NCBI GenBank assembly: GCA_015075325.1
Contig: JABTUP010000003.1
Span: forward strand, 1-64,000
Direction: 5' to 3'
Length of the DNA stretch: 64,000 nucleotides
Source: Flavobacteriales bacterium
GTDB taxonomy: Bacteria > Bacteroidota > Bacteroidia > Flavobacteriales_E > Vicingaceae
Below, piece by piece: positions 13,222 through 23,231 of this stretch. Below the pieces are notes generated by a model, which had not been told where the DNA came from, ran no database searches, and was given only the letters and a program-made list of their open reading frames with translations. Both the position numbers and the translations under genes were made by a program. Every line of letters starts with the position of its first letter. Positions within the stretch are counted from its first letter, which is position 1.

Positions 13222-14118
13222 ATGATTTCAATAATCGTTTGCACATACAACCGCGAACAATATTTACCCAAAATGTTGCAAAGTGTTGCTGCACAAAAAT
13301 GCAATACTAACGATTTTGAATTGGTTTTAGTAAACAACAATTCAACCGACGAAACACATCTAATTTGTGAAAAATTTGTTGCTGAAAATCCCTCATTACC
13401 TGTTCGATATTTTGTTGAAACCAAACAAGGTCTTTCGTTTGCACGAAATAGAGGTTTAAAAGAAGCCAAAGGAACTTACTTTGTATTTATTGACGATGAT
13501 GCTTTTTTATCGGATAACTACATTAAAGAACTAACCAGCTATTTGAAAAATGCACCAAAAGAATTGGGTTTTGGTGGAAAAATATTACCGTTTTTAGAGT
13601 GTGAACTCCCTAATTGGATGTCGAAATATTTAGAATCGCTAATGTCGGTTTTAGATTTAGGTAACGAAATAAAACCATTTAAAGGAGCTAAATATCCTGT
13701 TGGAGCAAACATGGGATTTTCGGCAAGTATTGTTCAAAAAATTGGCTATTTTAACGAAGAATTAGGAAGAACAGGAAATTCGATGCTGGGTGGCGAAGAA
13801 AAGGATTTTTTCTTTCGAATGAAAGCCGCAAATATTCCTATTTTATATTTCCCAAAAATGATGGTTCACCATGTTATTCCTGCAAAACGATTAACAGTTG
13901 CATTCATTCAAAAATTGGCATTAGGCATTGGCGAATCCGAACGCCTACGCACAAAAAAAAATGGAATAGGTTCGTACCTTTATCGTTGGATTTTAGAACT
14001 CTATAAATGGGGAGGAACATTTGCCTTATTTATAATTTATTTGTTTAAAGCATCTCCCTCAAAAGGCATTATGCTAATAAAATTTAGGTATTGGATAAGT
14101 AAAGGATTATGGGGATAG
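13222..14118 (+). CDS. Glycosyltransferase family 2
   Basis: A 298-residue GT-A enzyme. It opens with MISIIVCTYNREQYLPKML, has the nucleotide-sugar motif FIDDDAFL and the acceptor-side GGEEKDFFFR, and has a weakly hydrophobic C-terminal region that may associate with the membrane. It is expected to transfer a sugar from a nucleotide donor to a growing surface glycan. It overlaps the following flippase gene by 10 bases, which suggests translational coupling. Confidence 0.92.
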   Translation: MISIIVCTYNREQYLPKMLQSVAAQKCNTNDFELVLVNNNSTDETHLICEKFVAENPSLPVRYFVETKQGLSFARNRGLKEAKGTYFVFIDDDAFLSDNYIKELTSYLKNAPKELGFGGKILPFLECELPNWMSKYLESLMSVLDLGNEIKPFKGAKYPVGANMGFSASIVQKIGYFNEELGRTGNSMLGGEEKDFFFRMKAANIPILYFPKMMVHHVIPAKRLTVAFIQKLALGIGESERLRTKKNGIGSYLYRWILELYKWGGTFALFIIYLFKASPSKGIMLIKFRYWISKGLWG

Positions 14119-15602
14119 TTATTAAAAAATCAATAACTACTTCAATAATTAGCTACATTGGTATTTTACTAGGTGTAATCAGTGTACTTTGGCTTCAAAC
14201 TGCCATTATTACTGAACTCCAAATTGGTATTTTAAGCTACATAGTTGATGTAACAATACTTCTTTTACCACTAATTTTATTTGGCACAAGCGGAATACCT
14301 GTTCGATTTCTTCATCTTTTTAAGGAAAATAAAAACCGAAATCAATTTATTACTTCACTTTTTATTATTCCAGCAATATCAATTTTTTTGTTTTTATTGC
14401 TCTTTTTAATTTTTAAGCAAGAAATTTTCTTGCTTTTAGGAAAAAACACTTCGCAGTATTCCGATTATTTAATCTTTATTTTTCCCTTACTTTTTTGCTA
14501 TTCCTATCAATATTTAATCGAAGCCATATTATCAACCGAATCATTAATTGTATTCTCATCCTTTCTTAAAAACATACAAAGAAGGTTGGTTTTAATACTT
14601 CTATTGGTGTTATATCATTTTAAAATCATTTCATTTTATCAACTTGTTCAATGGTATGTTTTTAGTCATTTAATAGAAACTATTGCTCTTTACTTTTTTT
14701 TCACCAACCATTTTCAATTCAAATTTTCTAACCCTCTACCTATTTTAAAACATCCAAATTTAAAGGAATTTGTTAGCTACGGTTTGTATTTAATTATTGG
14801 AGTTAGTGGTGTTGTAATGGTTGGAAAATTAGACACTGTAATGATTAATAGTTTAACCAACAATTTTGAATTGCTGGGTGTTTATGCAATCGCTTTTTTT
14901 ATTGGCTCGGTTATAGAAATTCCGAAACGGATTGTGCATCAATTGGTTTTTCCCATCATGTCAAAATTAGTTGCAGAAGAAAACAAAGTAGAACTGGAAA
15001 AACTTTACAAACAATCAGGAATAAATCTATCTATTTTAGGTGTTTTTTTGTTTTTAATCATTTGGTTTAACATTGATGAATTGTTTTTAATTATACCAAA
15101 CGGAGAAAAATATGTAGCCGGTAAATGGGTAGTATTTTTTATTGGGCTATCAAAAGTAATTGATGTTGCTTTAGGAACAACTGATTTAATAATTAACGCA
15201 ACCAAACATTATAAATTAAATGGAATTTTAGCTCCATTGTTAATTATAATTACAATTGTAACAAACTATTTTTTAATACCTATTTATGGAATTACAGGAG
15301 CTGCTTTTGCTACAACAATAACTATTTGTATTTATTCTATAGTAAAATATACATTTGTTTACTCTCTATTAAAATTAAATCTAATTAGTAAAAATCATTA
15401 CTCATTAGTGCTTGTTTCATGTGTTATTTTACTAATCTTTTATTTTAAACCAATCTTCTTTTCCAATAACTTTTTAGAAATTATAGCCAATTCAACCATC
15501 ATAAGTATTATCTTTATTGGAGGAATTTTAACTTTTAAAACTTCCAATGAAATTAATGCTTTTGTGAAAAACAACCTTAAAAAATACCTAAAAACAAATT
15601 GA
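14109..15602 (+). CDS. Oligosaccharide flippase (Wzx/MATE-like)
   Basis: A 497-residue polytopic membrane protein with about 12-14 hydrophobic segments and few soluble loops, matching the polysaccharide biosynthesis / Wzx family. The segment TNNFELLGVYAIAFFIGSVIEIPKR and the last third (GITGAAFATTITICIYS) are typical of it. It probably flips a lipid-linked oligosaccharide across the inner membrane. Its start overlaps the GT2 gene, and the CMP-sugar cassette follows after a 38-base gap, so the same glycan is the likely cargo. Confidence 0.88.
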   Translation: MGIVIKKSITTSIISYIGILLGVISVLWLQTAIITELQIGILSYIVDVTILLLPLILFGTSGIPVRFLHLFKENKNRNQFITSLFIIPAISIFLFLLLFLIFKQEIFLLLGKNTSQYSDYLIFIFPLLFCYSYQYLIEAILSTESLIVFSSFLKNIQRRLVLILLLVLYHFKIISFYQLVQWYVFSHLIETIALYFFFTNHFQFKFSNPLPILKHPNLKEFVSYGLYLIIGVSGVVMVGKLDTVMINSLTNNFELLGVYAIAFFIGSVIEIPKRIVHQLVFPIMSKLVAEENKVELEKLYKQSGINLSILGVFLFLIIWFNIDELFLIIPNGEKYVAGKWVVFFIGLSKVIDVALGTTDLIINATKHYKLNGILAPLLIIITIVTNYFLIPIYGITGAAFATTITICIYSIVKYTFVYSLLKLNLISKNHYSLVLVSCVILLIFYFKPIFFSNNFLEIIANSTIISIIFIGGILTFKTSNEINAFVKNNLKKYLKTN

Positions 15603-15640: not shown

Positions 15641-16303
15641 ATGAAAATTATTGCGTTACTTCCCATGAAAGGACACTCCGAAAGAGTTCCAAATAAAAAC
15701 ATGAAATTATTTAATGGTATTCCATTGTTTAATCATGTATTAACTACTTTACAAAACTGTGATTTAATTGATGAAGTAATTATCAATACCGATAGCAACG
15801 TTATTTCTGAAAGTGCTAAAAAATTTAGTAAAGTAAAAATTCACAATCGTCCAAACGAAATTTGTGGTGACTTTGTATCAATGAACGATATAATTGCTTA
15901 CGACCTCAACCATTCCGATGGAGATATTTACCTTCAAACTCACAGTACCAACCCACTTTTAAAAACAACAACCATACATCAGGCAATCGAAAAATTTAAA
16001 AACCAACGTGAGTTCGATTCGTTGTTTTCAGTAACTAAACTTCAAACTCGTTTGTATTGGGAAGACGTTAGGCCAATAAACCACAATCCAAATGAATTAA
16101 TACGGACACAAGATTTACCTCCAGTTTTCGAAGAAAATTCTAATTTCTTTATTTTTACAAAAAGTTCATTTAAAAACGCAGCAAACAAAAGAATAGGTAA
16201 AAAACCCATGATGTATGAAATGGACAAATTAGAATCAGTTGATATTGATGAACCACATGATTTTATTTTGGCTGAAACCATACAACAACTTAATTTAGTT
16301 TAA
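15641..16303 (+). CDS. Acylneuraminate cytidylyltransferase (NeuA)-family enzyme
   Basis: A 220-residue nucleotidyltransferase. The N-terminal loop LPMKGHSERVPNKNMK takes the place of the canonical PARGGSKGIPxKN of NeuA/KdsB enzymes. EVIINTDSN, YLQTHSTNPLL and the closing DIDEPHDFILAE also match the family, including its metal-binding acidic pairs. The family couples CTP to the anomeric hydroxyl of a 2-keto acid sugar, giving a CMP-sugar. No NeuB- or KdsA-type synthase is adjacent; an HpaI-type aldolase follows after 3 bases instead. It is the first gene of a six-gene run with overlapping or near-touching ends. The substrate is unknown. Confidence 0.85.
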   Translation: MKIIALLPMKGHSERVPNKNMKLFNGIPLFNHVLTTLQNCDLIDEVIINTDSNVISESAKKFSKVKIHNRPNEICGDFVSMNDIIAYDLNHSDGDIYLQTHSTNPLLKTTTIHQAIEKFKNQREFDSLFSVTKLQTRLYWEDVRPINHNPNELIRTQDLPPVFEENSNFFIFTKSSFKNAANKRIGKKPMMYEMDKLESVDIDEPHDFILAETIQQLNLV

Positions 16304-16306
16304 CAC

Positions 16307-17062
16307 ATGAATTTAAAACAAAAAATTAGAGCAAAACAGTTAACTCTTGGCAGTTGGATTACCATTCCAAATCAAGCAGTAATTGAAATCATGGCTTCAG
16401 CTGGTTTCGATTGGTTAACCATTGATATTGAACATTCAGCCATTGATATGGAAAGCATTCAAAACCTAATCGGTTTTATTCAGGCGAAAAACATTAAGGC
16501 TTTAGTTAGAGTTTATGCTAACGATGAAGTAATTATTAAAAGAGTGTTAGATGCGGGAGCCGACGGAATTATTGTACCAATGATTAAATCGAAAGCGGAT
16601 GCTGAAAAATTAGTCGATTATGTTTATTACCCACCAAAAGGCAAACGAGGTGTTGGTCTTTCGCGGGCACAACAATATGGTACTGGATTTAATGAATACC
16701 AAGAAAAACTAAAAAACGATATTATTGTAATAGCTCAAATTGAACACATTGATGCTATTAATAATTTAGAAGACATTTTATCGATTGAAGAAATAGATTC
16801 AACACTTATAGGTCCTTACGATTTATCAGCTTCAATGAAATTTCCAGGACAATATGACTTGCCTCAAGTTAAAGAGGCTATAAAAAAATACGACGATATT
16901 TGTGACAAATTAAATAAACCAAAAGGTGCTCATGTCATTCAATCTGATTATACTTTTACTAAATCAAAAATCGATTTAGGATATTCGTTTCTTGCCTTTT
17001 CGTTAGATTTTTTCTTTTTAGGAGATAAAGCAAGAGAACAAATGCAATTATTAAAAAAATAA
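16307..17062 (+). CDS. HpcH/HpaI-family aldolase
   Basis: A 251-residue TIM-barrel enzyme of the class II pyruvate aldolase family. Hallmarks are DWLTIDIEHSAID (base and acidic residues), ALVRVYANDEVIIKRVLDAGADGIIVPMI, YYPPKGKRGVGLSRAQQYG, the metal-ligand region IAQIEH, and IGPYDLSASMKFPGQ. Family members reversibly condense or cleave pyruvate and an aldehyde to make or break 2-keto-3-deoxy acids, which is the class of compound a NeuA-like enzyme activates. Its place between a cytidylyltransferase and sugar-modifying enzymes suggests a biosynthetic rather than catabolic role; that is inference. Confidence 0.88.
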   Translation: MNLKQKIRAKQLTLGSWITIPNQAVIEIMASAGFDWLTIDIEHSAIDMESIQNLIGFIQAKNIKALVRVYANDEVIIKRVLDAGADGIIVPMIKSKADAEKLVDYVYYPPKGKRGVGLSRAQQYGTGFNEYQEKLKNDIIVIAQIEHIDAINNLEDILSIEEIDSTLIGPYDLSASMKFPGQYDLPQVKEAIKKYDDICDKLNKPKGAHVIQSDYTFTKSKIDLGYSFLAFSLDFFFLGDKAREQMQLLKK

Positions 17063-17067
17063 AAAAA

Positions 17068-17943
17068 ATGAAAATAGCCGTTTTTGGAGGTACAGGTTTT
17101 TTAGGAAGTTATTTAGTTACCGAACTATTAGAAAGAGGTTATGAAGTTTTTGCACTTGATATAAATGATTCAAGTTATATACCGAGCAATAATTTTATAA
17201 AAGCTGATATTTTAGACACCACTCTTTTATCTAACCTTTTCGAACAATATAAATTTGATGTGGTTTATAATTTAGCCGGATTTGCAAGCTTAGAAAAAGC
17301 AATTGAACATCCTATTTCGGCATTTCAATTAAATGTTATCGGAAACCTAAATATTATTGATTTATGTGTTAAACATCAAGTTAAACATTTTGTTTATGCA
17401 AGTAGTGCGTATGCAATGAGTAGCAAAGGTTCGTTTTATGGTTTATCCAAATTATCATCCGAAAAAATTGTTGAAGAATACAAAGAAAAATACAATTTAG
17501 ATTATACTATTTTGCGTTACGGTTCGCTTTACAGTGAACGCGATTTTGAAAATAATTACATTTTTAATTTAGTAAAAACAGCCATAAAAACTGGCGAAAT
17601 AAATCATGCCGGAGATGGTGAAGAAGTAAGAGAATATATTCATGCTTTTGATGCCGCAAAATTATCGGCAGATGTTATCGAAAACGATAATCTTAAAAAC
17701 AAACACCTAGTTTTAACAGGAGTTGAACGAATAAAACGCGGCGATTTATTTAAAATGATTAACGAAATTTTAGGTGAAAAACTAAAAATAAATTTATCAG
17801 CCGACGGTTATCAAAATCATTACAAATACACACCCTATAGCTTTACTGCAAAAACAAGTCAAAAACTTACTCCAAACCCTTATGTAGATATGGGTCAAGG
17901 ACTACTTTCTTGTATTCAAAAAGCTCACGAATTAATAAAATGA
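17068..17943 (+). CDS. NAD-dependent epimerase/dehydratase (extended SDR)
   Basis: A 291-residue Rossmann-fold enzyme with the GGTGFLGSYL nucleotide-binding loop at residues 7-16, the NLAGFAS segment, and the catalytic YGLSK (YxxxK) with an upstream serine in YASSAYAMSS. It resembles GalE/RmlB-like nucleotide-sugar epimerases and dehydratases, but the substrate cannot be read from the sequence. Its stop overlaps the next start (ATGA at 17940-17943), and it begins five bases after the aldolase stop. Confidence 0.88.
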   Translation: MKIAVFGGTGFLGSYLVTELLERGYEVFALDINDSSYIPSNNFIKADILDTTLLSNLFEQYKFDVVYNLAGFASLEKAIEHPISAFQLNVIGNLNIIDLCVKHQVKHFVYASSAYAMSSKGSFYGLSKLSSEKIVEEYKEKYNLDYTILRYGSLYSERDFENNYIFNLVKTAIKTGEINHAGDGEEVREYIHAFDAAKLSADVIENDNLKNKHLVLTGVERIKRGDLFKMINEILGEKLKINLSADGYQNHYKYTPYSFTAKTSQKLTPNPYVDMGQGLLSCIQKAHELIK

Positions 17944-18608
17944 GTAATACCATTTTTTTATCTTATCCGCTAAACGACAAAGCCTTTGGTTATGCCAATG
18001 GAAATCGTTTTAATCTAAAAAAAGTGCGAAGTATTTGCTGTGGTGATACCAGTAATAATTCCTCTTTTGAAATGCCAACACACTTCGGAACACACATCGA
18101 TTACCCTTACCACTTTGATGAAAAAGGTAAAAATTCGTCCGATTATTTAGCTCAAGACTTCGTTTTTTCGAAAATAGCGTGTATTTCAATTGAAGAAACC
18201 ATAATTGATGATTACCTCATCAAAAACAACCACTTAAATCTTTCCAAAATACCTTCAGAAACTGAATTATTGTTTATAAAAACCGGATTTTGTTATAAAA
18301 GATTATTACCCGAATATTGGGAATTTGGATATGGTTTTCACCCAGAAACTGCTGCCTTTTTAAAACAAAAATTACCCAATCTTAAAGCCGTTGCATTTGA
18401 TTTAATCTCACTAAATTCTTACCAACACAGAGAGCTGGGTAGAATTGCTCACAAAGAGTTTTTAAGCACCCAAAATATTTTAATAATTGAAGAAGTTAAT
18501 CTTCAAGAAATTACCGAAAAAACCATATTTAATGAAGTTATTATTGCTCCACTACTACTCGAAAAAGCCGATGGTGCACCAGTAACCATAATTGCAAAAA
18601 TACAATGA
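17940..18608 (+). CDS. Cyclase-family (kynurenine formamidase-like) metal hydrolase
   Basis: A 222-residue protein. The start at 17940 is chosen because it makes the ATGA overlap with the epimerase stop; an in-frame ATG at 17910 is possible but lies inside the epimerase. The family signature HFGTHIDYPYHF (HxGTHxDxPxH) supplies the metal-binding His and Asp residues, and HRELGRIAHKEFL carries the later conserved histidines. Family members hydrolyse amide, ester or lactone-like bonds. In this cassette it could deformylate or open a lactone of the acidic sugar; this is inference. It overlaps the next gene by four bases. Confidence 0.85.
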   Translation: MSNTIFLSYPLNDKAFGYANGNRFNLKKVRSICCGDTSNNSSFEMPTHFGTHIDYPYHFDEKGKNSSDYLAQDFVFSKIACISIEETIIDDYLIKNNHLNLSKIPSETELLFIKTGFCYKRLLPEYWEFGYGFHPETAAFLKQKLPNLKAVAFDLISLNSYQHRELGRIAHKEFLSTQNILIIEEVNLQEITEKTIFNEVIIAPLLLEKADGAPVTIIAKIQ

Positions 18609-19258
18609 AAATAAAAGCAATATTTTATGATTTTGATGGTGTAATCAAAGATTCGACTAACATTAAATCAAAAGCGTTTTACGATTTATACGCTCCATTT
18701 GGTGATGAAATTGCCAACAAAGTGGCAAAATACCATTTAGAAAATGGTGGAATTTCTCGATTCGAAAAAATAAAATATTTTCATCAGGAATTTTTAAAAA
18801 TCAACCTTTCCGAACAAGAAATAGCCGAATGGGCTGATAAATTTTCTGCTCTGGTTTTACAAAATGTAATTGAAAGCAATTACGTTTTTGGTGCTTTAGA
18901 AAGTATTAAAACACTTGCAAACCAGTACCAACAATTTATTATTACAGGAACACCTCAAAATGAAATTGAGTTTATCTGCGAAAAATCAAACATTTCAACC
19001 TACTTTGTAGAAATTTGTGGTTCACCTAAAAACAAAATATCGTGGTGTAACGAATTGATAAAAAAACATCAATTGAGCTCTAATGAAATCGTTTTTATTG
19101 GCGATGCAACAACCGATTTTGAAGCAGCAGAAGCATGCAAACTTCATTTTATTTTAAGAGAACACGAAGAAAACGAAAAACTATTTTCAACCAAAGATAT
19201 TGTTAAAGTTAAGGATTTAAATAACTTAGCCGAAGTTATAAAAAACAACCTCTCATGA
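18605..19258 (+). CDS. HAD-superfamily phosphatase
   Basis: A 217-residue HAD hydrolase of the phosphoglycolate-phosphatase/beta-phosphoglucomutase type. Motif I is YDFDGVIKDS (nucleophile Asp9, general acid Asp11), a helical cap covers about residues 15-90, motif II is ITGTP, a lysine in SPKNKISW is motif III, and FIGDATTDFEAA is motif IV. By analogy with KdsC or NeuB-pathway phosphatases it may remove phosphate from the aldol product before CMP activation. It overlaps both neighbours through ATGA junctions. Confidence 0.88.
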   Translation: MKIKAIFYDFDGVIKDSTNIKSKAFYDLYAPFGDEIANKVAKYHLENGGISRFEKIKYFHQEFLKINLSEQEIAEWADKFSALVLQNVIESNYVFGALESIKTLANQYQQFIITGTPQNEIEFICEKSNISTYFVEICGSPKNKISWCNELIKKHQLSSNEIVFIGDATTDFEAAEACKLHFILREHEENEKLFSTKDIVKVKDLNNLAEVIKNNLS

Positions 19259-20181
19259 AAGTAGCTGTTACATCTCCTTCATTTTCAAAACATACCGATT
19301 TAATTGAAAAAATGAACAAGGAATTTCCTGATGCAAAATTAAATACCAAAGGAGAAAAATTTTCTCAAACTTCATTAATCGATTATTTAAAAGGTTATGA
19401 AGCAGCAATAATAGGATTGGATGAAATTGACGATAAGGTATTGGCTCAACTTCCCGAGCTAAAAATTATTGCAAAATATGGTGTTGGGCTTAACAACATT
19501 GATATTGAAGCATGTAAAAAAAGAGGCGTAAAAATTGGTTGGACAGGAGGTGTTAACAAAACTTCAGTTGCCGAAATGGTTATTGCAAACGCACTTACAT
19601 TGTTAAGAAATATTTACCAAACAGCTAATTTATTGAGTGAAGGAAAATGGGAGAAAGATGGCGGGGAACAATTAAACAATAAAACTGTTGGAATTATTGG
19701 AGTTGGTCATATCGGAAAAGAAGTTGTTCGAATGTTAGCTCCTTTTAATTGCACTATTTTGGTAAACGACATCATCAATCAAGATGACTATTATAAAACA
19801 AACAATTTAATAAAATCATCTAAAGAAGACATCTTTAAAAATGCTGATGTAATTACAATTCACACTCCACTTACCGCTGAAACACAAAATTTACTAAACC
19901 AAAAAAGTTTCTTATTAATGAAACCAAATGCTGTAATTATTAATACCGCAAGAGGTGGAATTGTGAATGAAAATGATTTATTAGAAGCATTAAAAAGCAA
20001 TCGAATTAAAGCGGCAGCATTAGATGTGTACGAAGAAGAACCTCCAACCAACAGCGAATTATTAGCTCTTCCAAACTTAATTTGTACTCCGCATATTGGA
20101 GGCAATGCAAAAGAAGCTGTTTTTGCAATGGGCATGAGTGCTATAAACCATTTAATCGATTATAAATTAATAAATTTGTAG
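19255..20181 (+). CDS. D-2-hydroxyacid dehydrogenase (phosphoglycerate dehydrogenase-like)
   Basis: A 308-residue NAD-dependent dehydrogenase. The Rossmann loop GVGHIGKEVV lies near residue 150. The catalytic Arg is in NTARGGIVNENDL, the Glu in DVYEEEPP and the His in CTPHIGGNAKEA, the standard triad. It interconverts 2-keto acids and D-2-hydroxy acids. It lacks the C-terminal ACT domain of regulatory SerA enzymes. At the end of the cassette it may feed or reduce a keto acid in the same pathway. It overlaps the HAD gene by four bases. Confidence 0.9.
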   Translation: MKVAVTSPSFSKHTDLIEKMNKEFPDAKLNTKGEKFSQTSLIDYLKGYEAAIIGLDEIDDKVLAQLPELKIIAKYGVGLNNIDIEACKKRGVKIGWTGGVNKTSVAEMVIANALTLLRNIYQTANLLSEGKWEKDGGEQLNNKTVGIIGVGHIGKEVVRMLAPFNCTILVNDIINQDDYYKTNNLIKSSKEDIFKNADVITIHTPLTAETQNLLNQKSFLLMKPNAVIINTARGGIVNENDLLEALKSNRIKAAALDVYEEEPPTNSELLALPNLICTPHIGGNAKEAVFAMGMSAINHLIDYKLINL

Positions 20182-21248: not shown

Positions 21249-22043
21249 ATGATAAAAAAAACAATAAAAAAATACATTCCATCACTGTTTTTAAACCAGC
21301 CAGGATATTTTAAAAGAAGTGCTGGCGTGAAAGATTTTAAGGACAAATACAAAGGCAAACGATGTTTTATTGTTGGCAACGGACCTTCATTAAATCAATT
21401 GGATTTAAATCTGCTGAAAAACGAATACAGTTTTGCAGTAAATTCTATTTACTACAAAACTAAAGAAATGGGGTACAAACCTACATTTTATGTTGTAGAA
21501 GACCCTCATGTTATCCATGATAATATAAAGGAAATAAACAACTACAACTGCGATTACATGTTTTTTCCAGCAAAATTTAAATCGTTATTTAAAAAAGCTA
21601 AAAATCGATTTTTTCTAAACTTGGATTATTCTTTTTTTAATGATGTTAGCCCATATTTTGAAATACCACGTTTTTCGCAAGATTGTTCGCAAGAAGTTTT
21701 TTGTGGGCAATCAGTAACCATAGTAAACCTACAACTTGCTTATTACATGGGATTTACCGAGGTGTATTTAATAGGAATGGACTTTACTTACAACATACCA
21801 GAAAGTGCAAAAGTAAAAGGCAATGTTATTGAAAGTACTGAAGATGATGTGAATCATTTTCACCCAGATTACTTTGGAAAAGGAAAAAAATGGCACGACC
21901 CAAAACTACATAATGTGTTGAAAAGCTACAAATTAGCTAAATTAATGTATGAATTAGATAATAGAAAAGTAATCAACGCAACTTTTGGAGGTAAGCTAGA
22001 GGTTTTTGACAGAGTTGAGTATTCAAGTTTATTTAAAAAATAA
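21249..22043 (+). CDS. DUF115/MptE-like protein, candidate CMP-sugar glycosyltransferase
   Basis: This 264-residue protein has the core GKRCFIVGNGPSLNQLD, then FAVNSIYYK, a segment near FCGQSVTIVNLQLAYYMGF, and VYLIGMDFTY. A His-rich stretch (HFHPDYFGKGKKWHD) follows. The NGPSL and GMDF motifs are shared by DUF115 (6-hydroxymethylpterin pyrophosphokinase MptE-like), the DUF115 part of Maf flagellin glycosyltransferases, and GT42 sialyltransferases, several of which use CMP-nonulosonates. With a NeuA-like gene upstream, a transferase role is plausible but unproven. Its TAA stop overlaps the next ATG by one base. Confidence 0.75.
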   Translation: MIKKTIKKYIPSLFLNQPGYFKRSAGVKDFKDKYKGKRCFIVGNGPSLNQLDLNLLKNEYSFAVNSIYYKTKEMGYKPTFYVVEDPHVIHDNIKEINNYNCDYMFFPAKFKSLFKKAKNRFFLNLDYSFFNDVSPYFEIPRFSQDCSQEVFCGQSVTIVNLQLAYYMGFTEVYLIGMDFTYNIPESAKVKGNVIESTEDDVNHFHPDYFGKGKKWHDPKLHNVLKSYKLAKLMYELDNRKVINATFGGKLEVFDRVEYSSLFKK

Positions 22044-22390
22044 TGAAAGAAGAAGAATTAAAAAAAACGTGGGAGGAAGTCTATTTTTCAGAGAATTGTC
22101 ATGAAAAAGAAATTATTGATGATTTGCCCAATTTATTAAAAGGTTGTGAGGTATTTTTTGATATTGGTGCAAGTGGCGGACAATATACCTTTTTTGCAAA
22201 CAAAATTTTACAAAACAAAAACATTGTTGCAGTTGAAGCCGATCCTATTCGCTTCAACATTTTAAATAAAAGTTGTAAAGAGTGGGAATCTATTAATAAC
22301 AATAATATACAAGCTTTACATCGTGCTTTTTATGAAAAAGACGATGAGTTTATTGATTTTTACGTAACAGAATCGAATGTGAGACGATAA
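22043..22390 (+). pseudogene. FkbM-family methyltransferase, truncated to its N-terminal half
   Basis: The 115-residue product has the SAM-binding start of FkbM methyltransferases (FFDIGASGGQYTFFANK, then NIVAVEADPIRFNIL and DFYVTESN) and ends abruptly at NVRR. Full FkbM domains run to roughly 220-260 residues, so the C-terminal half is missing. The sequence immediately after is the N-terminus of an unrelated methyltransferase in another frame, as if a deletion had joined two genes at about 22379. It may still be translated. It is probably a remnant rather than a working enzyme; an assembly or sequencing error is the alternative. Confidence 0.7.
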
Positions 22391-22418: not shown

Positions 22419-23231
22419 ATGGTTCGTTTGCTTCAAAATGTTTCAAAAGTTCGATTAAACGACTCTACATGCTATGTTGAAGTTGGCGTTTTTCAAGGAT
22501 TAACATTACTTTCTGTTGCTAAAGAAGTTAAAAATGCTCCTGTTTATGGTATTGACAATTTTGCTTTTTTTGACAGAAATGGAAAAAATCTATCCATAGT
22601 AAATGAACGAACAAAAAAACTTCAACTTTCCAATGTAAACATCATAAATGAAGATTATGAAGATGCATTAGAAAATCTTGCTACACATATTGGCAATAAA
22701 AAAGTTGGGGTTTATTTTGTTGATGGACCTCACGATTACAGAAGTCAATTGATGTGTTTAGAACTTATTAAGCCATTTTTAGCAGAAGATGCCATTATTA
22801 TTATTGACGATTGTAATTATCGACATGTTCGACAAGCAAATAGGGATTTTTTGTTTAACAACAAAGAATTTAAATTGATGTTTGAATCGTACACCAAATG
22901 TCACCCGCTAAATTTAAATGATAACGAACGCAAAGAAGCGGAAAAAGACTTTTGGAATGGTGTTAATGTATTGGTTAAAGATTCTGGAAACAAGCTAAAA
23001 GAATCTTACCCTCCTACTCATCGAGATAGAACACTGTTTGAAAATGAACACATTATTCAAACATCAAAACATCCTGATGCTATTACACATTTATTACCAC
23101 TTTCTAATTATTTTGGTGGTTTTATAAAATCTTTATCTAAGAAAAAAGCTGCTCAACCTGGAAAGTTTAAAATGATGAACACCTATAGTGATGAATTACC
23201 AAAAAATCAGTTTAATTCTTCATTAAGTTAG
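22419..23231 (+). CDS. Class I SAM-dependent methyltransferase (Methyltransf_24-like), possibly 5'-damaged
   Basis: From the ATG at 22419 this encodes 270 residues. TCYVEVGVFQGLTLLSVAKEV and VYGIDNFAFFD form the SAM site, GVYFVDGPHDYRSQL and IIIDDCNYRHVRQ follow, as in cephalosporin-hydroxylase-like Methyltransf_24 proteins. Thirteen protein-like codons (DDKVLTGFSGHR and onward) precede the ATG in the same frame, back to an ATG-TGA pair at 22377-22382. The natural start may therefore have been 22377, now blocked by a stop at codon 2. Methylation of a glycan or its sugar is the likely role, given the locus. Confidence 0.75.
   Translation: MVRLLQNVSKVRLNDSTCYVEVGVFQGLTLLSVAKEVKNAPVYGIDNFAFFDRNGKNLSIVNERTKKLQLSNVNIINEDYEDALENLATHIGNKKVGVYFVDGPHDYRSQLMCLELIKPFLAEDAIIIIDDCNYRHVRQANRDFLFNNKEFKLMFESYTKCHPLNLNDNERKEAEKDFWNGVNVLVKDSGNKLKESYPPTHRDRTLFENEHIIQTSKHPDAITHLLPLSNYFGGFIKSLSKKKAAQPGKFKMMNTYSDELPKNQFNSSLS

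Follow-up and report, generated by a model that had tools for sequence, protein, structure and literature searches.

The six-gene cassette

The subject of this analysis is a compact set of six genes at positions 15641-20181 on the forward strand of a 64,000-nucleotide stretch of DNA (hereafter the window), which comprises positions 1 to 64,000 of contig JABTUP010000003.1 in the genome assembly GCA_015075325.1 of a Flavobacteriales bacterium. Reading of the open reading frames (ORFs), combined with a Pfam profile scan, assigns all six genes to the families named in the original prediction, which had viewed the cassette as a route to a cytidine monophosphate (CMP)-activated keto-acid sugar that dispenses with a synthase of the NeuB or KdsA type. 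The gene set, the families and the packing are as described there, exact to the base:

15641-16303, + strand: NeuA-like cytidylyltransferase (CMPT), 220 amino acids; PF02348, 3e-29, 102.7 bits
16307-17062, + strand: HpcH/HpaI-type class II pyruvate aldolase (ALD), 251 amino acids; PF03328, 4e-32
17068-17943, + strand: extended short-chain dehydrogenase/reductase (SDR) of the epimerase/dehydratase type, a sugar(-phosphate) oxidoreductase or epimerase, 291 amino acids; PF01370, 1e-42
17940-18608, + strand: cyclase-family metal-dependent hydrolase, proposed lactonase, 222 amino acids; PF04199, 2e-13
18605-19258, + strand: haloacid dehalogenase-type (HAD) phosphatase, 217 amino acids; PF13419, 2e-15
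19255-20181, + strand: D-2-hydroxyacid dehydrogenase (DH) of the phosphoglycerate dehydrogenase type, 308 amino acids; PF02826, 5e-58

Three bases separate CMPT from ALD and five separate ALD from the SDR gene, while ATGA overlaps join SDR to hydrolase, hydrolase to HAD and HAD to DH. For the hydrolase, the ORF list gives a TTG start at 17910; the ATG at 17940 agrees with the ATGA overlap.

Properties of the encoded enzymes

By its PF02348 domain, its fold and its catalytic positions, CMPT belongs to the NeuA/KdsB superfamily of CMP-ulosonate cytidylyltransferases. Its structural model has a predicted local distance difference test (pLDDT) score of 93, and the top folds recovered in a structure search are CMP-sialate and CMP-Kdn synthetases (Z 24-25.5); the first eight entries are all CMP-sialate, CMP-Kdn or CMP-Pse synthetases (Z 21-25.5), with KdsB next at 20.4. 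The residues K19, N20, R155, D201 and D203 are conserved. The altered NeuA loop pointed out in the original prediction, MKGHSERVPNKN, is real, and its positions P8, M9, K10, S13, E14, R15, V16, K19 and N20 are invariant or at least 90% conserved across the relatives. It may plausibly reflect a different substrate. With 91.7 bits, CMPT stays under the cut-off of 205.7 bits for the PseF equivalog TIGR03584.

ALD combines the PF03328 domain with the metal-binding and catalytic residues of the HpcH/HpaI class II pyruvate aldolases (H43, R68, D82, E146 and D172), each of which is at least 90% conserved among 43 sequences. It scores below the equivalog cut-offs for HpaI (191.9 versus 368.8), GarL (160.4 versus 406.75) and YfaU (129.9 versus 441). 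The use of hydroxypyruvate by this enzyme is conceivable, since "hydroxyketoacid aldolase" entries are found among its solved HpaI-family relatives.

In the type-1 loci described below, the catalytic residues of ALD, SDR, HAD and DH are kept in at least 90% of the members. Residues S113, Y124 and K128 are conserved in the SDR, whose solved relatives indicate nucleoside diphosphate-sugar epimerases, the closest being UDP-glucose 4-epimerase (4zrm). The PF04199 hydrolase retains its metal ligands (H48, G50-T51-H52, D54, H58, H171, E184) and reaches 53.7 of the 223 bits set for arylformamidase (kynurenine formamidase; TIGR03035). Its slot between SDR and HAD is occupied in 10 loci by a 6-phosphogluconolactonase, and the two enzymes occur together in none; both replacements assessed against TIGR01198 (cut-off 124.45), those of loci L014 and L026, exceed it with 167.4 and 183 bits. 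Because 6-phosphogluconolactonases fill this slot, the PF04199 enzyme probably serves to open a lactone. The HAD protein conserves D9, D11, K144 and D167 together with the cap motif HxxxGGxSRxxK; it found no match among the solved structures searched. In the DH, residues R233, E262 and H280 are conserved, and the closest solved structure is 1wwk. It is the least conserved protein of the set, with at least 60% identity to the window DH in only three type-1 loci and 29-40% in the others, so that distant family members occupy this position. In locus L047 (7700-9307), HAD and DH are fused within a single ORF of 535 residues.

Distribution and conservation of the cassette

When 84,980 species genomes were scanned with a CMPT alignment, at least 577 relatives emerged, and the 80 best-scoring ones were retained; with the addition of loci drawn from whole genomes and plasmids, the comparison covered 88 CMPT neighbourhoods. 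The retained loci represent the nearest relatives, contig ends truncate many of them and they lack independence from one another, and the fractions reported here are thus descriptive. Three types can be distinguished among the neighbourhoods, and 12 loci fit none of them.

Type 1 (42 loci), defined by CMPT and an aldolase together with SDR and/or HAD, contains ALD in all 42 loci, the extended SDR in 40, DH in 39, HAD in 37, the PF04199 hydrolase in 25 and a 6-phosphogluconolactonase in 10. Such loci are found in Bacteroidota, Balneolota, Campylobacterota, Thermodesulfobacteriota, Deferribacterota, Spirochaetota, Bdellovibrionota, Pseudomonadota, Bacillota and Chloroflexota, as judged from record titles; at least nine bacterial phyla harbour the cassette in near-identical form. 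The search for its conservation across genomes that had been recommended with the original prediction shows a gene set that recurs over many phyla. All six activities are present in 30 of the 88 loci, all of them of type 1, and the median intergenic distance in the recurring set is −4 bases; an explanation by chance neighbours is rejected on these grounds. The cassette is real, widespread and coherent.

Type 2 (24 loci) is devoid of an aldolase; here CMPT is joined by DH and a short SDR and, in many cases, by a GT2 glycosyltransferase and a PF01973 protein. Examples are L064, L074, L075, L076, L077, L091, L093 and L099, often in the order GT2-CMPT-DH-short SDR, with hosts among Nitrospirota, a Methanosarcinales archaeon, Chloroflexota, Pseudoalteromonas, Legionella longbeachae and Dolichospermum. 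Type 3 (10 loci) contains CMPT, mostly ALD and DH, a GmhA-like SIS protein, a Gfo/Idh protein, a short SDR, YhcH and an AroB-related cyclase that matches TIGR04425, a putative sugar phosphate phospholyase. It is perhaps a carbocycle-related, uncharacterised variant (L057, L073, L087, L068, L079, L053, L072, L084 and L015, with YhcH frequent). The types are clustered on the CMPT tree (none of 500 label shuffles gave a value as low), but a single origin does not hold for each type.

Absence of a linked NeuB or KdsA synthase

Neither a NeuB nor a KdsA gene lies in or beside the locus. A profile search found no NeuB (PF03102) in the genome that harbors the window, and within 10 kb of CMPT in the 42 type-1 loci NeuB was near two (in one case on the opposite strand) and KdsA near none. 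A synthase gene positioned just outside the locus as a constant partner, which would have spoken against the original prediction, was looked for and not found in the window, in its genome or in the relatives. When 40 type-1 genomes were searched in their entirety, 33 contained some NeuB-family match and seven, including G054 and Polaribacter glomeratus (G266), contained none; the cassette therefore does not need NeuB. The genome of the window does possess two PF00793 (DAHP_synth_1) genes, KdsA or AroF, on contigs C12 and C19, and a KdsB-like gene on contig C34, all far from the locus. These three genes probably serve the synthesis of 3-deoxy-D-manno-octulosonic acid (Kdo) and of aromatic amino acids.

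Linkage between aldolase and cytidylyltransferase

ALD is present in 53 of the 88 CMPT loci, and within type 1 no two genes are neighbours more often than CMPT and ALD. The linkage was also examined in reverse, starting from ALD genes. Among 247 Bacteroidota genomes there were eight such genes (E ≤ 1e-50), every one adjoining or near a cytidylyltransferase gene: NeuA-like CMPT in three cases (the genome of the window, G054 and G139, in the last of which the two genes lie about 5.5 kb apart) and a KdsB-like enzyme exceeding the PRK13368 cut-off in the other five. In 200 genomes of Campylobacterota, the phylum of a Sulfurovum genome, three of five ALD genes adjoin a NeuA-like CMPT and two a KdsB-like gene. 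Pooled over both phyla, 13 of 13 ALD genes are accompanied by a cytidylyltransferase, six times NeuA-like and seven times KdsB-like. A rough control that covered 148 genomes with 46 PF03328 places agrees with this: at least five of these places lay within about 6 kb of a cytidylyltransferase gene, against about 0.3 expected at random, an expectation that assumes randomly scattered genes, which real genes are not.

The aldolase itself can be replaced. In L019, L122 and L123, an HMGL-like (PF00682) aldolase accompanies HAD and a NeuA-like enzyme, and two Leisingera plasmids (L119, L120) carry such an aldolase together with HAD and a KdsB-type enzyme. All four combinations of two aldolase families with two cytidylyltransferase families are thus seen, with HAD as the common third partner. 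This mixing supports the route of the original prediction, and aldol addition, dephosphorylation and CMP transfer as consecutive steps are the simplest reading.

The original prediction could have been undermined by a free separation of aldolase and cytidylyltransferase in other genomes. In one direction the association holds, as ALD stays with a cytidylyltransferase, be it NeuA-like or KdsB-like; in the other it fails, as the 24 type-2 loci testify.

A proposed aldolase route to a CMP-activated 2-keto acid

We suggest, with a probability of about 0.64, that the product of the operon is a CMP-activated 2-keto (ulosonic) acid destined for a surface glycan and built via an aldolase route. The computed basis of this proposal is the gene content, the conserved catalytic residues, the conserved linkage and the absence of NeuB, and it is strengthened by the replacement of ALD by a second aldolase family and of CMPT by KdsB-like partners. 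In the envisioned pathway, ALD would join a 2-keto acid (pyruvate, or hydroxypyruvate provided by DH) to a phosphorylated aldehyde to yield a 2-keto sugar acid phosphate, from which the HAD enzyme would remove the phosphate in a KdsC-like role, as in Kdo synthesis. The NeuA-like enzyme would then transfer CMP, preceded in some relatives by the action of a YhcH-type anomerase between ALD and cytidylyltransferase, and the CMP donor would finally be used by a PF01973 transferase with a Maf/CstII fold. The SDR and the proposed lactonase may have a part in forming the aldehyde partner or in modifying the acid; DH could form the 2-keto acid directly from an aldonate or, in loci with ALD, supply the 2-keto donor, for instance hydroxypyruvate. 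Of the original prediction, the CMP-activated 2-keto acid route without its own NeuB or KdsA is thus supported, while the roles given to SDR, hydrolase and DH can be proposed only.

YhcH-family genes are present in 15 CMPT loci; four loci of type 1 have the gene placed between CMPT and ALD, and in six of type 3 it adjoins CMPT. The E. coli YhcH protein opens the ring of N-acetylneuraminic acid (Neu5Ac) for its aldolase and is an anomerase for open-chain ulosonates (PMC8141875). The placement of these genes fits a 2-keto sugar acid that switches between open and ring forms.

A further step beyond this proposal would be that ALD uses hydroxypyruvate from the co-inherited DH, so that the CMP-ulosonic acid would keep its 3-hydroxyl group instead of being a 3-deoxy compound. 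We regard this extension as tentative and, on the whole, doubtful. To our knowledge, there is no dedicated pathway for an activated ulosonic acid retaining the 3-hydroxyl; if the idea were true, the type-2 set and the type-3 set with its AroB-like cyclase would make further members of this kind.

Alternative explanations

Several observations weigh against the aldolase route. The 24 of 88 CMPT loci that lack an aldolase keep DH and a short SDR, which indicates that the CMPT family can work without ALD. Furthermore, DH is more faithful to CMPT (78 of 88 loci) than ALD is, yet an aldol route does not need it, and neither SDR nor lactonase nor DH has a firm place in the aldol scheme. Since loci that lack the aldolase still pair DH with CMPT, the main rival is an oxidative route, in which the SDR would oxidise a sugar or sugar phosphate to a lactone, the PF04199 enzyme or 6-phosphogluconolactonase would open it, DH would oxidise C2 of the resulting aldonate to a 2-ulosonate, HAD would dephosphorylate and CMPT would activate the product, leaving to ALD an auxiliary or recycling function. 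The mutually exclusive occurrence of 6-phosphogluconolactonase and cyclase is in keeping with this scheme, as are the HAD-DH fusion and five of the 24 type-2 loci that possess the cyclase, DH, an aldose-dehydrogenase-like SDR and CMPT. However, it does not sit well with an ALD clade that is always accompanied by a cytidylyltransferase, even in loci where no adjacent SDR or lactonase was seen (L049, L114), nor with a second aldolase family that replaces ALD in the company of HAD alone. We consider the oxidative route to be unlikely.

The cassette might alternatively modify or re-activate Kdo or another ulosonate furnished by a synthase elsewhere in the genome. The two DAHP_synth_1 genes, the KdsB-like gene and the NeuB-family matches in 33 of 40 type-1 genomes speak for such a supply, but these synthases are unlinked to the cassette, the genome of the window and seven others are free of NeuB, and the aldolase would be left without an explanation; this scenario is very improbable. 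Even less credit is given to the notion that CMPT activates something other than a 2-keto sugar acid, for instance the 2-hydroxyl group of a hydroxy acid made by DH. Although no partner accompanies CMPT more faithfully than DH does and the nucleotide-loop motif differs from that of NeuA, the fold and sequence of CMPT are nearest to CMP-sialate, CMP-Kdn and CMP-Pse synthetases, KdsB-type enzymes can take its place, and YhcH-family anomerase genes accompany it in 15 loci.

Relation to known systems

The aldolase route, as proposed, resembles the CMP-Kdo pathway (KdsD, KdsA, KdsC, KdsB) in leading from an aldehyde phosphate to a keto acid phosphate that is processed by a HAD phosphatase and by CMP transfer, and KdsB-type enzymes indeed fill the place of CMPT in relatives of the cassette. 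It deviates from it by an HpaI-type aldolase in lieu of the phosphoenolpyruvate-dependent KdsA, and by the additional SDR, lactonase and DH. With the NeuB-NeuA, PseI-PseF and LegI-LegF pathways the cassette shares NeuA-type activation and a nearby Maf/CstII-fold transferase, whereas it lacks a NeuB-family synthase, and its CMPT has the altered loop and lies far under the PseF cut-off. ALD has the family and class II catalytic residues in common with the catabolic aldolases HpaI, GarL and YfaU, but it reaches none of their equivalog cut-offs, and in both phylum samples its gene invariably had that of a cytidylyltransferase for company. A reversible aldolase is likewise coupled to CMP transfer in the chemoenzymatic one-pot procedure with NanA and CMP-sialate synthetase; that, however, is an in vitro method and not a dedicated biosynthetic operon. 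Klebsiella K38 contains 3-deoxy-L-glycero-pentulosonic acid, and E. coli K3, according to a title cited in PMC10433991, contains a 4-deoxy-2-hexulosonic acid.

No description of an aldolase-cytidylyltransferase route was found in the open-access literature, subscription journals not being covered, and this silence is a weak sign of novelty. Sialic acids, pseudaminic acid, legionaminic acid and Kdo shape the encounters of bacteria with hosts and phages, and genome surveys find such acids through NeuB or KdsA. If the proposed route is true, it would escape these surveys in at least nine phyla and would add new acidic sugars to bacterial surfaces, so that a neglected class of surface sugars may await discovery. 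The enzymes might also be used in glycoengineering as a reversible aldolase-to-CMP synthesis set.

Neighbouring genes and the candidate transferase

The cassette is flanked on the same strand by genes that upstream provide a surface glycan context and downstream include a candidate transferase:

13222-14118, + strand: GT2-like glycosyltransferase (GT2-type N-terminus read from the sequence)
14109-15602, + strand: polysaccharide flippase; PF01943
20198-21247, + strand: radical SAM protein; PF04055
21249-22043, + strand: PF01973 (MptE-like/Maf) protein, candidate CMP-ulosonate transferase, 264 amino acids; 87 bits

The order GT2-like gene, flippase, CMPT is also kept in L021 and L022. Downstream of DH, the radical SAM gene follows at 16 bases, the PF01973 gene at 1 base and an FkbM ORF (start 22043) at −1 base, and because of this close spacing the operon probably runs on into these three genes.

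The protein encoded at 21249-22043 combines the PF01973 domain with a sialyltransferase-like fold of the Maf/CstII type. Its model (pLDDT 90) has as top folds Maf (5mu5, Z 15.7) and the sialyltransferase CstII (1ro8, Z 13.0), with the HPPK/MptE structure 8sd5 (M. jannaschii HPPK) close behind at Z 12.8. In Maf, PF01973 forms the catalytic domain, and both CMP-Neu5Ac and CMP-Kdo can serve as donors for a Maf enzyme (PMC11339370). PF01973 genes are found near CMPT in nine type-1 and 14 type-2 loci. On the strength of its modelled fold, the protein is likely to be the user of the CMP donor. L019 (9859-11409) encodes, next to CMPT and HAD, a protein of 516 residues that unites the HMGL-like aldolase with a PF01973-like (Maf/MptE) domain.

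No counterpart of the radical SAM gene was seen among the compared CMPT neighbourhoods; a radical SAM/SPASM gene also adjoins the aldolase in L114. The FkbM-like methyltransferase ORF (22043-22390) is 115 residues long with an early stop and looks like a truncated remnant; another methyltransferase ORF is found at 22419. Finally, a capsule-like cluster on an IncX1/IncY plasmid of E. coli (L013, 8995-11905) contains a distant CMPT relative (33%) alongside an inositol-monophosphatase-like gene and a protein of 514 residues that ends in a NeuB domain (PF03102, residues 257-499).

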